Part shown: positions 1,923 through 6,103 of the stretch, piece after piece | Numbering within the stretch: position 1 is the first letter of the stretch | Layout: the number at the start of each line of letters is the position of its first letter | Assembly: GCF_027307225.1 (NCBI RefSeq) | Contig: NZ_DAHUXJ010000106.1 | Location: forward strand, 1 to 64,000 | Length of the DNA stretch: 64,000 bases | DNA from: Bradyrhizobium sp. | GTDB lineage: Bacteria > Pseudomonadota > Alphaproteobacteria > Rhizobiales > Xanthobacteraceae | Direction of reading: 5' to 3' | Notes under the pieces: generated by a model | Told to the model about the DNA's origin: nothing | Databases searched by the model: none | What the model saw: the letters and a program-made list of their open reading frames with translations, nothing else | Position numbers and translations under genes: made by a program

Positions 1923-3587
1923 ATGAATCGCTTTGCATTCGTGGCGTGCGCTATATTGCTCGCGCCCCTCAGTGCCAACGCTCAGTCCGCCGATCAATTG
2001 GTCAAGGGCGCGACCGACACGTCAAACGTTCTCAATTATGGCATGGGGTACAATCTGCAGCGGTTCAGTCCGCTGACCCAGATCAACCGGGACAACGCCA
2101 AGGAGCTTGTGCCGGTGTGGAACTACAGCTTTGCCGACGACCGCAGCGAGGAATCGCAGCCGCTGGTATACCAGGGCGTGATCTACGTCACCACGAACAG
2201 CGCCACGATGGCGATCGACGTCAAAACCGGCAAGCAGATCTGGAAGACCAAGGTCGAATATCCGCCCGAGACGCCGCGCATCGTATGCTGCGGCATCATC
2301 AACCGCGGCGCGGCGATCCAGGACGGCAAGCTGTACCGGACGACGCTGGACGCCAACGTCATCGCGCTCGACATGAAAACCGGCAAGGAGCTGTGGCGGC
2401 AGAAGGCGGCCGACATCAAGGAAGGCTACTCCATGACGGTCGCACCGCTCGTCGCTGACGGCGTCGTGCTGACCGGCGTTTCCGGAGCCGAGTTCGGCAC
2501 CCGCGACTTCATCGACGGCTGGGATCCCGGAACAGGCAAGCATCTCTGGCGCACCTACTCCGTCCCGAGCCCCGATGAGCCAGGCGGCGACACCTGGAAG
2601 GGCGACACCTGGAAGCTCGGCGGTGGATCGACCTGGATCACAGGCTCCTATGACCCCGAGTTGAAGACGGTCTATTGGGGCATCGGCAACCCAGGTCCGT
2701 TCGACGCGGCCGGGCGGCCGGGCGACAATCTCTACACCTGCTCCGTGCTCGCGCTCGACCCCAAGACGGGGAAGATCAAATGGCACTACCAGTTCTCGCC
2801 GAACAACCCCTTCGACTATGACGCCGTCGCCGAGATGGTGCTTGCCGAGATCAAGGTCGACGGCAAGCCGACCAAGGTGCTGATGGATGCCAACCGCAAC
2901 GGCTTCTTCTATGTGCTCGATCGCACCAACGGCAAGCTGCTCGCGGCCAATCCCTATGTGAAGGTCAACTGGGCGACCGGCATCGACATGAAGACCGGCC
3001 GTCCGATCGAGACCGACGTCACCAAGGATGCGCGCGAAGGCAAGAAGGTCACGGTCTTCCCGTCAATCCTCGGCGGCAAGAACTGGGAGCCGATGTCGTT
3101 CGACCCGCAGACCGGCCTCGCCTATGCCAACACGCTTCTGTTCGGCGGCCATTACAAGACCGCGCCTGCAACCTACAAGGCAGGTGAATGGTATGTCGGC
3201 ATGGACCTCACCGATCTCTGGGAGTGGGGTACCGGGCCGCGCGGCGCACTCAAGGCGATCGATCCCTTGACCGGCAAGGCCAAGTGGGAAGCGCCGAGCG
3301 ACATTCCGCGCTTTTCGGGTGTGCTGTCGACCGCCGGTGGCGTCGTCTTCTCCGGCCAGTTGACCGGTGAGTTCGAGGCATTCGATGCCGACAGCGGCAA
3401 GAAGCTCTGGCAGTTCCAGACCGGTTCGGGCATCGAAGGACAACCGGTGACCTGGCAGCAGGATGGCGTGCAGTATGTCGCCGTCGCGAGCGGCTATGGC
3501 GGCGTCTACTCCTTGTTCTCCGGCGACGAGCGGTTGGCCAAGGTGCCGGCTGGCGGATCGCTGTGGGTGTTCGCGGTCAAGAAGTAA
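1923..3587 (+). CDS. PQQ-dependent methanol/ethanol-family dehydrogenase, lanthanide type
   Basis: This 554-residue periplasmic quinoprotein oxidises primary alcohols and passes electrons to a c-type cytochrome. A signal peptide covers about residues 1-20 (cleavage after SANA). Beta-propeller repeats with tryptophan-docking motifs follow. The vicinal disulfide pair is Cys122-Cys123 (IVCCGI). The active-site stretch reads FDYDAVAEM, with the catalytic Asp at 298 and a second Asp at 300. In XoxF and ExaF-type enzymes the second Asp coordinates a lanthanide, whereas calcium enzymes have Ala, Ser or Thr there. A strong ribosome binding site precedes ATG 1923. The following cytochrome c and binding-protein genes give a xoxF-xoxG-xoxJ-like arrangement. 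The substrate (methanol, ethanol or another alcohol) cannot be decided from sequence alone. Confidence 0.9.
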   Translation: MNRFAFVACAILLAPLSANAQSADQLVKGATDTSNVLNYGMGYNLQRFSPLTQINRDNAKELVPVWNYSFADDRSEESQPLVYQGVIYVTTNSATMAIDVKTGKQIWKTKVEYPPETPRIVCCGIINRGAAIQDGKLYRTTLDANVIALDMKTGKELWRQKAADIKEGYSMTVAPLVADGVVLTGVSGAEFGTRDFIDGWDPGTGKHLWRTYSVPSPDEPGGDTWKGDTWKLGGGSTWITGSYDPELKTVYWGIGNPGPFDAAGRPGDNLYTCSVLALDPKTGKIKWHYQFSPNNPFDYDAVAEMVLAEIKVDGKPTKVLMDANRNGFFYVLDRTNGKLLAANPYVKVNWATGIDMKTGRPIETDVTKDAREGKKVTVFPSILGGKNWEPMSFDPQTGLAYANTLLFGGHYKTAPATYKAGEWYVGMDLTDLWEWGTGPRGALKAIDPLTGKAKWEAPSDIPRFSGVLSTAGGVVFSGQLTGEFEAFDADSGKKLWQFQTGSGIEGQPVTWQQDGVQYVAVASGYGGVYSLFSGDERLAKVPAGGSLWVFAVKK

Positions 3588-3783: not shown

Positions 3784-4164
3784 GTGATGCAAGTACGTAT
3801 CGGCTGGGCGGCGGCATTCGCCGCCCTTGCCATTGTGGCGATGGTGGTACCCTCCGCGCAACCCGCGGCGGCACAACAGTCCGCTCCTGAGCAAGCCAAG
3901 CCCGGCCCGGCAAACGCGGACCAGGGAATGATCGACAAGGGCAAGGCGATTTTTGCAGAGCATTGCTCGCACTGCCACGGCTTCAACATGGTCAATGCGG
4001 GCACGATCACGCCCGACCTGCGCAAATTTCCCGACGACAGACCGCGGTTCGTCACCACCGTCAAAAGCGGCAAGAACAACCGGATGCCGCCCTGGGGCGA
4101 CGTCTTGAGCGACGACGACATCGCGAACCTGTGGGCCTACGTGACGAGCCGGAGGGGCCAATGA
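3784..4164 (+). CDS. Periplasmic cytochrome c, probable electron acceptor of the PQQ dehydrogenase
   Basis: This 126-residue protein has an N-terminal signal peptide (about residues 1-31, ending in AAAQ) and one haem-binding CSHCH motif (Cys61, Cys64, His65). Met101 in RMPPWG is the likely distal ligand. It is a small class I cytochrome c. Position directly after the quinoprotein suggests the XoxG role of taking electrons from PQQH2. Two starts are possible, GTG 3784 or the adjacent ATG 3787. Its stop overlaps the next start in an ATGA junction, so translation of the two is probably coupled. Confidence 0.88.
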   Translation: MMQVRIGWAAAFAALAIVAMVVPSAQPAAAQQSAPEQAKPGPANADQGMIDKGKAIFAEHCSHCHGFNMVNAGTITPDLRKFPDDRPRFVTTVKSGKNNRMPPWGDVLSDDDIANLWAYVTSRRGQ

Positions 4165-5105
4165 GACGTTCGTTGACGGCGATCTGTGCCAGCGCGCTGC
4201 TCTCAGTTGCACTATCGGCGATCACGGACAGGCCTGTCGCCGCATCCGACGACGTCCTGAAGGTGTGTCTCGACGAAGACCTGCCGCCAGCGTCGGTCCA
4301 CAGGCGCGGCAAGCCGGACAGCGGATTTGACGTCCTGCTGGCGCAGGCCGTTGCCAAGCAACTGCAACGGCCGCTCCATATCCAGTGGTTCGAAACCAGG
4401 CTGGACGAGGACTCAAGCCCCGCACTTGAGGCCAATGCGCTGCTTTCGGACGGCCGGTGCGCGCTGCTCGGCGGTTACGCGCTGACCCAGGATTCACTCG
4501 TCGCCCCCGGCGTCAAGACGGCGAAGCTTCCCGATTTCGACGGCGCGACCAGGGACGATCGCCGGCGCCGTGTCCCGCTCGGCGTCCTTGCACCCAGCCG
4601 GCCCTACGTCTATTCGGCCCTCACGGTGGTGCTCGGCAGCAAGGCGGGCGATCGCCATGTCAAAGACCTCGGCGACCTTGCGGATTTGAGAATTGGCATC
4701 GAGAGCGGCACGCTCGCGGACGCTATCTTGATGAACTTCGACAAAGGCAAACTGATCGACCAGATCACCCATCTGGTGCCGACGCGGAGCGATCTGCTCG
4801 GCGAACTCGAGCGCGGCGAACTCGACGCGACGCTGGTGGACACGCGCCGCCTCGACGCCTATCGCGCCGCGCATCCGGACAGCCATCTTGCGGCGAGCGG
4901 ATATTACTACCCGATCGGCGTCAACCGCGCCTATATCGGTGTTGCCAGCGACGGCGCGCTCATCGCGGCCGTCGACAAGGTGCTGGCGGATCTTGAAGCG
5001 AACGGCACCATCGAACAGCTGGCCAAAACTTCCGGTCTCACTTATCAGAAGCCTCGCGAGCCCATCATCCTTGGCGACGTTCTGCCGCAGATCTTGCGGA
5101 AGTAA
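4161..5105 (+). CDS. Periplasmic solute-binding protein, XoxJ/MoxJ-like
   Basis: This 314-residue protein has a signal peptide (about 1-28) and an extracellular solute-binding family 3 fold. Ligand-lobe motifs include VCLDEDLPPAS near the N-terminus, DLADLRIGIESGT in the middle and GELDATLVDTRRLDAY later. It starts at ATG 4161, overlapping the cytochrome stop by ATGA. An open frame extends upstream to 3963, but the signal peptide fixes 4161 as the start. No ABC permease or ATPase genes are nearby. With the quinoprotein and cytochrome neighbours, a XoxJ-type maturation or accessory role is more likely than transport. That role is inference. Confidence 0.8.
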   Translation: MRRSLTAICASALLSVALSAITDRPVAASDDVLKVCLDEDLPPASVHRRGKPDSGFDVLLAQAVAKQLQRPLHIQWFETRLDEDSSPALEANALLSDGRCALLGGYALTQDSLVAPGVKTAKLPDFDGATRDDRRRRVPLGVLAPSRPYVYSALTVVLGSKAGDRHVKDLGDLADLRIGIESGTLADAILMNFDKGKLIDQITHLVPTRSDLLGELERGELDATLVDTRRLDAYRAAHPDSHLAASGYYYPIGVNRAYIGVASDGALIAAVDKVLADLEANGTIEQLAKTSGLTYQKPREPIILGDVLPQILRK

Positions 5106-5215: not shown

Positions 5216-6103
5216 ATGATCGATTCGAGCCGACGCACCGTTCTTGCAAGCGGTGCTGCCGCCGCGGCGGCAAGCGCAGCGCCGCAAGTGTTCGCCCAAG
5301 CGGAAGGACACGCACAGCCGGCGGGCGCGGTTCCGGGATTGCCTGATGGCGCCAAGATCGGCTTCTACGAGAAAGGTGACGTTCGCATCCGCTATGCCGA
5401 GATTGGCTCGGGCTTCCCGCTGCTGGCGACGCCCGGCGGCGGCTTGAACTCTTGTATCGCCGTGTGGGCGCGCGCGGTGATCGACATTCCGCAGGAGTAC
5501 AAGAACGACTTCCGTGTGATCACCATGGACCAGCGCAATGCCACGGGCGGTGAATCCACCGGCCCGGTTCCGGTCGACGATCCCTGGGGCGCGTTCGCCG
5601 ACGACCAACTGGGCGTGATGGACCATCTCGGCATCGACAAATTTTTCTTCTTCGGCAACTGCATCGGAGGCCCGTTCGCGATGAAGCTGATGGAGCGGGC
5701 GCCACAGCGCATCGCTGCTGCGATATTGAGCCAGCCAGTCGGGCACAACGCGGCGAAACCGGATTACATGTACGACGCCGGCAAGACCGTCTGGGCCAAG
5801 GAGCTGCGCGAGCGCCAGAGCGACGTCTCGATGGAGACCATCGAGAAATATCTGCACAACCTCTACCGCGTGCGTCCCGATTTCGTGTACAGCGTCTCGC
5901 GCGATTTCGCGAAATCATGCCAGACGCCGATGCTGGTACTGCCGGACAACGTCGATGCGCATCCGCTGGCGGCTTCGATCGACGTCGCCTCGCTTTGCCC
6001 GAATGCCGAGATCACGGTGTTCCCCTGGAAGGAGCCGCCGGAACTGAAGGCGCGCACCATCAACCGCGCGCGCACTTTCCTGAAGCGACATCAGACGGCG
6101 TAG
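5216..6103 (+). CDS. Tat-exported alpha/beta-hydrolase-fold protein with atypical active site
   Basis: This 295-residue protein starts with a twin-arginine-type signal (SSRRTVLASG, residues 4-13, then an Ala-rich stretch to about 28). The alpha/beta-hydrolase core has an oxyanion-type GGG near residues 74-76, an MDQRNATGGE strand and a nucleophile elbow GNCIGG at 147-152. Cys149 therefore replaces the usual Ser. The acidic-residue strand reads LVLPDNVDAHP (240-250). The place where the catalytic His normally sits reads FPWKEPPE, with no His. It could be a Cys-dependent enzyme of dienelactone-hydrolase type or a non-catalytic protein. A ribosome binding site (AAGGGAG) precedes ATG 5216. It follows the PQQ dehydrogenase cluster, suggesting a periplasmic role in the same pathway. 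Confidence 0.8.
   Translation: MIDSSRRTVLASGAAAAAASAAPQVFAQAEGHAQPAGAVPGLPDGAKIGFYEKGDVRIRYAEIGSGFPLLATPGGGLNSCIAVWARAVIDIPQEYKNDFRVITMDQRNATGGESTGPVPVDDPWGAFADDQLGVMDHLGIDKFFFFGNCIGGPFAMKLMERAPQRIAAAILSQPVGHNAAKPDYMYDAGKTVWAKELRERQSDVSMETIEKYLHNLYRVRPDFVYSVSRDFAKSCQTPMLVLPDNVDAHPLAASIDVASLCPNAEITVFPWKEPPELKARTINRARTFLKRHQTA

Follow-up and report, generated by a model that had tools for sequence, protein, structure and literature searches.

How might an α/β-hydrolase-fold protein work when its nucleophile elbow carries a cysteine and the loop where the catalytic histidine belongs carries none? The question is raised by a gene at positions 5216..6103 (+ strand) of the 64,000-nucleotide stretch of Bradyrhizobium sp. 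DNA analysed here (the window). Its open reading frame is intact, encodes 295 amino acids and has homologues elsewhere. The nucleophile elbow of the protein reads FFGNCIGG with Cys149, and the stretch ahead of the last helix, VFPWKEPPEL, is free of histidine; the reading frame, the GNCIGG elbow and the FPWKEPPE loop that the first-pass annotation had pointed out are all real in this translation. That annotation also described the protein as lacking the Ser and the His of the triad, which is right insofar as a cysteine occupies the elbow and the β8-αF loop has no histidine, but it overlooked a conserved histidine, His249, one loop away between β7 and αE. Against the nearest relative (L002, 92% identical), 62 of the 93 base differences fall on third codon positions and 61 of the 85 changed codons are synonymous, as expected of a gene kept by selection.

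Membership in the α/β-hydrolase fold superfamily follows from profile PF00561, which scores 46.8 bits where the cut-off is 25.8. An AlphaFold2 model built on a 74-row alignment (mean pLDDT 88.5, pTM 0.84; residues 1-36 below 50) places the elbow G147-N-C149-I-G151, a G-x-Nuc-x-G motif, between β5 (143-148) and αC (151-161), and further assigns β7 (239-242), αE (251-260), β8 (264-266) and αF (275-291). The loop that holds His249 (residues 241-250) is modelled with a mean pLDDT of 98. Structural comparison with VIA-align returns small esterases and C-C hydrolases, with 8v16 at the top (Z 22.8, rmsd 2.8 over 222 residues) and 6eb3 (Z 22.6) and BphD 1c4x (Z 21.7) among the other rows, rows within 1 counting as tied; Foldseek gives similar neighbours with TM-scores of about 0.5-0.7. 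Seven NCBIfam models match, every score lying far under the model's own cut-off. The PcaD model (3-oxoadipate enol-lactonase, TIGR02427) reaches 36.1 bits against a curated cut-off of 255.85, which leaves the protein outside that family, the BphD model reaches 33.4 bits against a curated cut-off of 462.15, and one intracellular PHA depolymerase model reaches 22.3 bits against 300, while neither Pfam nor NCBIfam yields a dienelactone hydrolase or PHA synthase model at E <= 0.001. Solved structures offer no close sequence relative, the best PDB chain scoring 34.2 bits in one search and 43.6 bits in the other (profile positions 8-139 of 252). By profile and fold, the nearest known proteins are PcaD, BphD/HsaD and the small esterases 8v16 and 6eb3, all of which use a Ser nucleophile together with a β8-loop His.

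Alignment of the family reveals that Cys149 (5660..5662, + strand), His249 (5960..5962, + strand) and Trp271 (6026..6028, + strand), the last in the β8-αF loop in the place of the canonical His, occur together in all 113 sequences compared, which come from different loci. This total is made up of 81 sequences (the window plus the best 80 of at least 520 stretches), 22 and 10, after removal of overlaps, namely the window in a 23-row set and seven re-fetched loci in a 17-row set. Taken set by set, Cys149 and Trp271 are each present in 81/81, 23/23 family rows and 17/17. Invariant among the same 81 sequences are, besides C149, H249 and W271, residues D244, P270, D105, R107, N108, W124 and D130. 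D105, R107 and N108 belong to a family motif, D-Q-R-N-A (105-109; 5528..5542, + strand; A109 in 80/81), where ordinary relatives read D-x-R-G. The cysteine is also found in all 22 members retrieved by whole-protein or profile genome searches, the window included. Because the two scan patterns spanned the W124 region and the CIG elbow, conservation of these two segments is partly imposed; H249, D244 and W271 lay in neither pattern, and the conservation of His249 and Trp271 is therefore not a selection effect. Loci with a stop inside the stretch read (L079, L091, L104, L109) or with odd ends (L112, L118, L131), seven altogether, were excluded from alignment A2 and are still counted in the 81-sequence figures; L011 is interrupted by an in-frame stop.

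Profile alignment with ordinary relatives (A3) pairs V246 with their invariant catalytic Asp, which sets His249 at position acid+3; this pairing was read by eye from the printed alignment, and a second alignment agrees. In the segment D244-N245-V246 (5945..5953, + strand), the canonical acid column thus holds Val in the window and, across the 81 sequences (the window and the best 80 of at least 520), T 58, V 17, I 3, A 2 and S 1, with Asp244 near by. With T, V, I, A or S in this column throughout the main clade, alignment does not fix the third catalytic residue, which may be Asp244 or residue 245. Six distant members (L036, L037, L038, L040, L141 and L220, a single species contributing L038 and L040 as two of its strains) carry an Asp at 246 within D-x-x-H-P, as would be expected if the histidine arose beside an existing acid. 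L036 and L037 have a further His, five residues past the Trp, that may act as the base in those two; L038, L040 and L141 lack it. In the canonical-His loop itself (residues 267-274, TVFPWKEP), the placement of Trp271 relative to the missing histidine is ambiguous: the profile alignment pairs the canonical His with P274, and counting back from the conserved F288-L289, with the BphD residues as we take them to be, puts Trp271 on the canonical-His position.

As a background we used 51 other α/β hydrolases, 26 from the window genome and 25 from other proteobacteria (3 of 54 loci, L181, L184 and L186, had no profile-matching frame and were dropped; L188 is misaligned). A His in the β8-loop segment is present in 49 of the 51, and the nucleophile column holds S 38, D 7, C 3, A 1, G 1 and N 1. 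In the MAFFT alignment 48 of the 51 background rows are gapped at column 249, and gap-free tests were used for this reason: HP in the β7 loop occurs in 1/51 (L164, at acid+4) against 19/19 family rows in the same alignment, and D-x-x-H in the β7 loop occurs in 0/51. Among 15 ordinary relatives that form another set, HP at acid+3 occurs once, in L029. Both L164 and L029 retain their own β8 His, which indicates that a His ahead of the loop Pro can serve another role; the relocation could plausibly have passed through forms that have both histidines. A Cys elbow together with the canonical His is seen in L148, L182 and L183, so that the arrangement of the histidine, and not the cysteine, distinguishes the family. 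L148, whose elbow (GICQGG) carries the cysteine and whose β8 loop (NHVLQP) keeps the His, is an ordinary α/β hydrolase and offers a natural comparison.

We favour the reading, at a probability of roughly one half, that the protein is a cysteine hydrolase in which Cys149 would be activated by His249, the base having moved to the β7-αE loop, and that it would act on ester or lactone products of flavin monooxygenases. In such a mechanism Cys149 would be the nucleophile and His249 the general base; the base would have left the β8-αF loop, which carries Trp in every member seen, for position acid+3 of the β7-αE loop. From sequence comparison, this relocation is the likely reading of the alignments. 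The proposed substrates would be esters or lactones produced by flavin monooxygenases of the Baeyer-Villiger type, which the enzyme would open or cleave. A survey of the fold (PMC7034887) reports that in 22 of 40 α/β-hydrolase families the residue at acid+3 makes hydrophobic contact with the imidazole of the catalytic His; His249 should consequently lie near the vacated place of the imidazole, and hence near the nucleophile. Cysteine triads are reported to be under weaker constraint and to be able to do without the third residue (PMC9825947). The suggestion of the first-pass annotation that the protein is a cysteine enzyme acting on an aldehyde or ester product survives in its ester form, with Cys149 in every family sequence seen and oxygenases among the recurring neighbours.

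The loss of the canonical His, joined in the main clade by loss of the canonical Asp, would also suit a pseudoenzyme or binding protein in which Cys, His and Trp line a ligand pocket without turnover, and Streptomyces relatives located in NRPS/PKS clusters lack any nucleophile (L039, L203, L204). We consider this unlikely for the family, however, given that Cys, His and Trp are retained together throughout the 113 sequences, in records titled as several phyla, and that catabolic enzymes are frequent among the neighbours.

A different role, that of a non-catalytic helper of the adjoining quinoprotein, had been put forward by the first-pass annotation, which noted a PQQ dehydrogenase next door. 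The dehydrogenase is real: the window encodes a PQQ alcohol dehydrogenase at 1923-3587 (TIGR03075, 686 bits). It contains a CC pair, and its D-Y-D stretch (FDYDAVAE) is reminiscent of lanthanide-type enzymes. Between it and the hydrolase gene, at 3963-5105, lies a binding protein that matches the quinoprotein-associated model TIGR03871 weakly (24 bits, cut-off 212); its TTG start is probably too early, with the leader-like MRRSLTAICASALLSV lying inside. This position just downstream of both genes, and a leader that would send the products to a shared compartment, speak for an accessory of the dehydrogenase. Co-occurrence across loci speaks against it: homologues of the dehydrogenase or the binding protein were found in 0/98 other family loci, the 92%-identical L042 included (tblastn, E <= 1e-3, 1.03 Mb; flanks reached up to 5 kb per side in the 80 named loci and about 6-10 kb in the remaining 18, and were shorter where a contig ends). 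A lack of association with PQQ genes elsewhere is an outcome that the first-pass annotation had itself named as refuting its suggestion. The leader, moreover, is missing from most testable loci. A conserved PQQ linkage was rejected on this search, made in 18 loci and then in all 98, and the accessory role is largely refuted and, in our estimate, highly improbable.

The leader itself is of the twin-arginine type. Residues 1-28 (MIDSSRRTVLASGAAAAAASAAPQVFAQ) were read as such by eye in a protein that begins MIDSSRRTVLASG...PQVFAQ; with a guessed cleavage site the leader covers residues 1-27 (SRRTVLASG...PQVFA; 5216..5296, + strand). By a rule that asks for twin Arg plus an uncharged hydrophobic run, it is present in 7 and absent in 69 of the 76 testable named loci (among the best 80 of at least 520); by eye, it is present in the window, L002 and L003. 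In a tree of 89 rows the trait needs three changes among the 85 scored rows, and eight of the nine leader-bearing rows fall in one 11-row group that includes the window (SH-aLRT 99), with L003 apart. Within this group L065 is leaderless and L061 and L064 are unscored; the leader-bearing L112 lies outside the tree. Being confined mostly to one clade, the leader marks export as a clade trait and not as part of the core function of the family, and export, as read from sequence, would be mainly a trait of the window's clade, where the leader would take the enzyme to the periplasm. The Tat signal of the first-pass annotation is thus present by eye, and the periplasmic location that it was held to imply is a prediction.

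Analysis of the other neighbours reveals two recurring partners. The first is a BVMO-like flavoenzyme, whose L101 copy matches PF00743 and shows what we take to be the BVMO fingerprint, FxGxxxHxxxWP. Its gene lies 26-47 bp upstream on the same strand in L081, L087, L100, L101 and L133 (within 50 bp in five loci), overlaps the family match in L091 and lies 311 bp upstream in L074; a BVMO-like gene of 38-43% identity stands 0.5-8 kb upstream in 12 of the 14 same-genus loci of the other subgroup. All these gaps are distances between tblastn matches. Three of the loci (L087, L101, L133), in which the family gene adjoins the Baeyer-Villiger-like gene, are MAG records titled Bordetella parapertussis, and these species names are probably unreliable. 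Luciferase-type monooxygenases are found in 10/83 loci and SDRs in 11/83 (raw counts, with one member of each confirmed by Pfam), and one same-genus locus also holds an acyl-CoA dehydrogenase, an enoyl-CoA hydratase, a nitronate monooxygenase and a thiolase-like gene. Esters and lactones are the products of Baeyer-Villiger oxidation, and it is the recurrence of BVMO-like neighbours that leads us to propose ester or lactone hydrolysis as the function.

The second partner is a YghU-type oxidoreductase of the GST family (L094 copy: NF008731, 518 bits against a cut-off of 325), encoded upstream on the same strand at 25-317 bp in 13 of the 14 same-genus loci of the other subgroup (at 5.3 kb in L044) and in L069 and L094, with copies at these loci 75-83% identical to that of L094. 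The 14 same-genus loci share their gene order and are therefore not independent cases. In L118, three family matches lie on one contig (3318-6694) with a YghU-type GST gene in between. Such a partner raises the alternative that Cys149 is a nucleophile in glutathione chemistry (acyl-glutathione, hemithioacetal or disulfide), with His249 as an acid-base residue. The association is nonetheless narrow: a GST match (E <= 1e-20) is present in 5 of the 80 named loci (the best 80 of at least 520), adjacent in just L069, L094 and L118, and absent at the window locus. YghU is, besides, a broad-range enzyme and may merely protect the cysteine, and we regard glutathione chemistry as possible but rather unlikely.

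Neither the BVMO-like gene nor the YghU-type GST gene is found at the window locus or at the loci of its nearest relatives. Among 11 loci checked in the window's clade, no genes are shared beyond pairs, other shared frames overlapping the family gene; L060 and L067 have in common a gene that looks by eye like a metallo-β-lactamase gene, and L064 and L076 one for an ABC-type ATPase, likewise identified by eye.

The frequency of oxygenase genes among the neighbours could equally suit a cofactor-free oxygenase, a lyase or an epoxide-type hydrolase that uses His249 and Cys149 other than through an acyl-enzyme. According to section 2.7 of a review (PMC11878206), the fold does host D/E-H dyad lyases that work without serine. 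Nothing specific in our data points to such chemistry, however. An elbow cysteine in this fold usually signals covalent catalysis, and we hold this alternative to be improbable.

The preferred reading of a relocated base applies to a family that is large and apparently unstudied. Searches of 60 relatives give matches at E <= 6e-76 in 14 genomes, all of them from the 36 genomes, counting the window's own, of its genus, and the next match beyond these stands at 2.9e-9. In wider draws, 397 genomes of the order include 5 with the family, and 398 of the phylum include 6. Profile A1 scores members at 220 bits or more and ordinary hydrolases at no more than 68.4, and the narrower profile A2 gives the distant L141 and L220 154 and 157 bits. 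A scan of GTDB species genomes yields at least 520 stretches at tblastn E <= 1e-3, of which membership is not certain for all, and the best 80, which were kept, come from records titled Alphaproteobacteria, Acetobacteraceae, betaproteobacterial MAGs, Dehalococcoidia/SAR202 and others. Copy number in seven genomes is two each in three titled SAR202/Dehalococcoidia, four in two and one in two, the fourth copy in one of the four-copy genomes being the distant L220. Plasmid records hold distant relatives only, of which two from Rhizobium indicum (31-33% identical) have the family residues. The Streptomyces plasmid genes mentioned above (28-30% identity), which lie in NRPS/PKS clusters with a P450 gene adjoining, have the elbows ASGDGT and ASGAGT without a nucleophile; L204 has lost the His too, and the three are possible pseudoenzymes.

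Dienelactone hydrolase, PHA depolymerase and PHA synthase likewise combine a Cys elbow with this fold and act on esters or lactones. Section 2.7 of PMC11878206 lists them as C-D-H triads with the His supplied by the β8-αF loop, whereas the family described here has Trp in that loop and its His in the β7-αE loop. The laboratory-evolved cysteine lipase CALB, in the relevant excerpt of PMC6642262, confirms that a Cys-His-Asp triad can be active in this fold; unlike the present family, it is man-made and keeps its His in the usual place. A triad residue from the loop of another strand is also known from ZenA lactonases, in which the Asp follows β6 (PMC10913051, in part); in these enzymes it is the acid that has changed place, with the His still in β8-αF, whereas here the His appears to be the mover. 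In the sections of the 2024 review (PMC11878206) that bear on this point, the residue that migrates is the acid, and the His comes from the β8-αF loop. We found no report of a relocated catalytic His in the α/β-hydrolase fold in the open-licence literature, and the family is a variant of α/β hydrolases apparently not described before. More tentatively, and with somewhat less confidence than for the window protein, we propose that the family consists of α/β hydrolases with the His relocated to acid+3 and a Cys-His dyad or triad of new connectivity, which would carry out a lactonase or esterase step after Baeyer-Villiger oxidation in proteobacteria and SAR202.

For SAR202, lactones formed by Baeyer-Villiger oxidation have been proposed to open either spontaneously or through the action of a lactonase or esterase that is given no name (PMC5395668, in part). 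The word hydrolase does not occur in the main-text portions consulted of that paper, nor do hydrolase and COG0596 in those of PMC6946804, and the published SAR202 oxygenases belong to type II, another class than the BVMO-like gene here. With two copies in each of three SAR202/Dehalococcoidia genomes and luciferase-type monooxygenases as neighbours, the family is a candidate for this lactone-opening step. If the proposed arrangement is true, a large natural family whose β8-αF loop holds Trp and whose conserved His lies one loop away would be an exception among α/β hydrolases and a case of active-site rewiring, in which a textbook enzyme fold would prove able to relocate a key catalytic residue.
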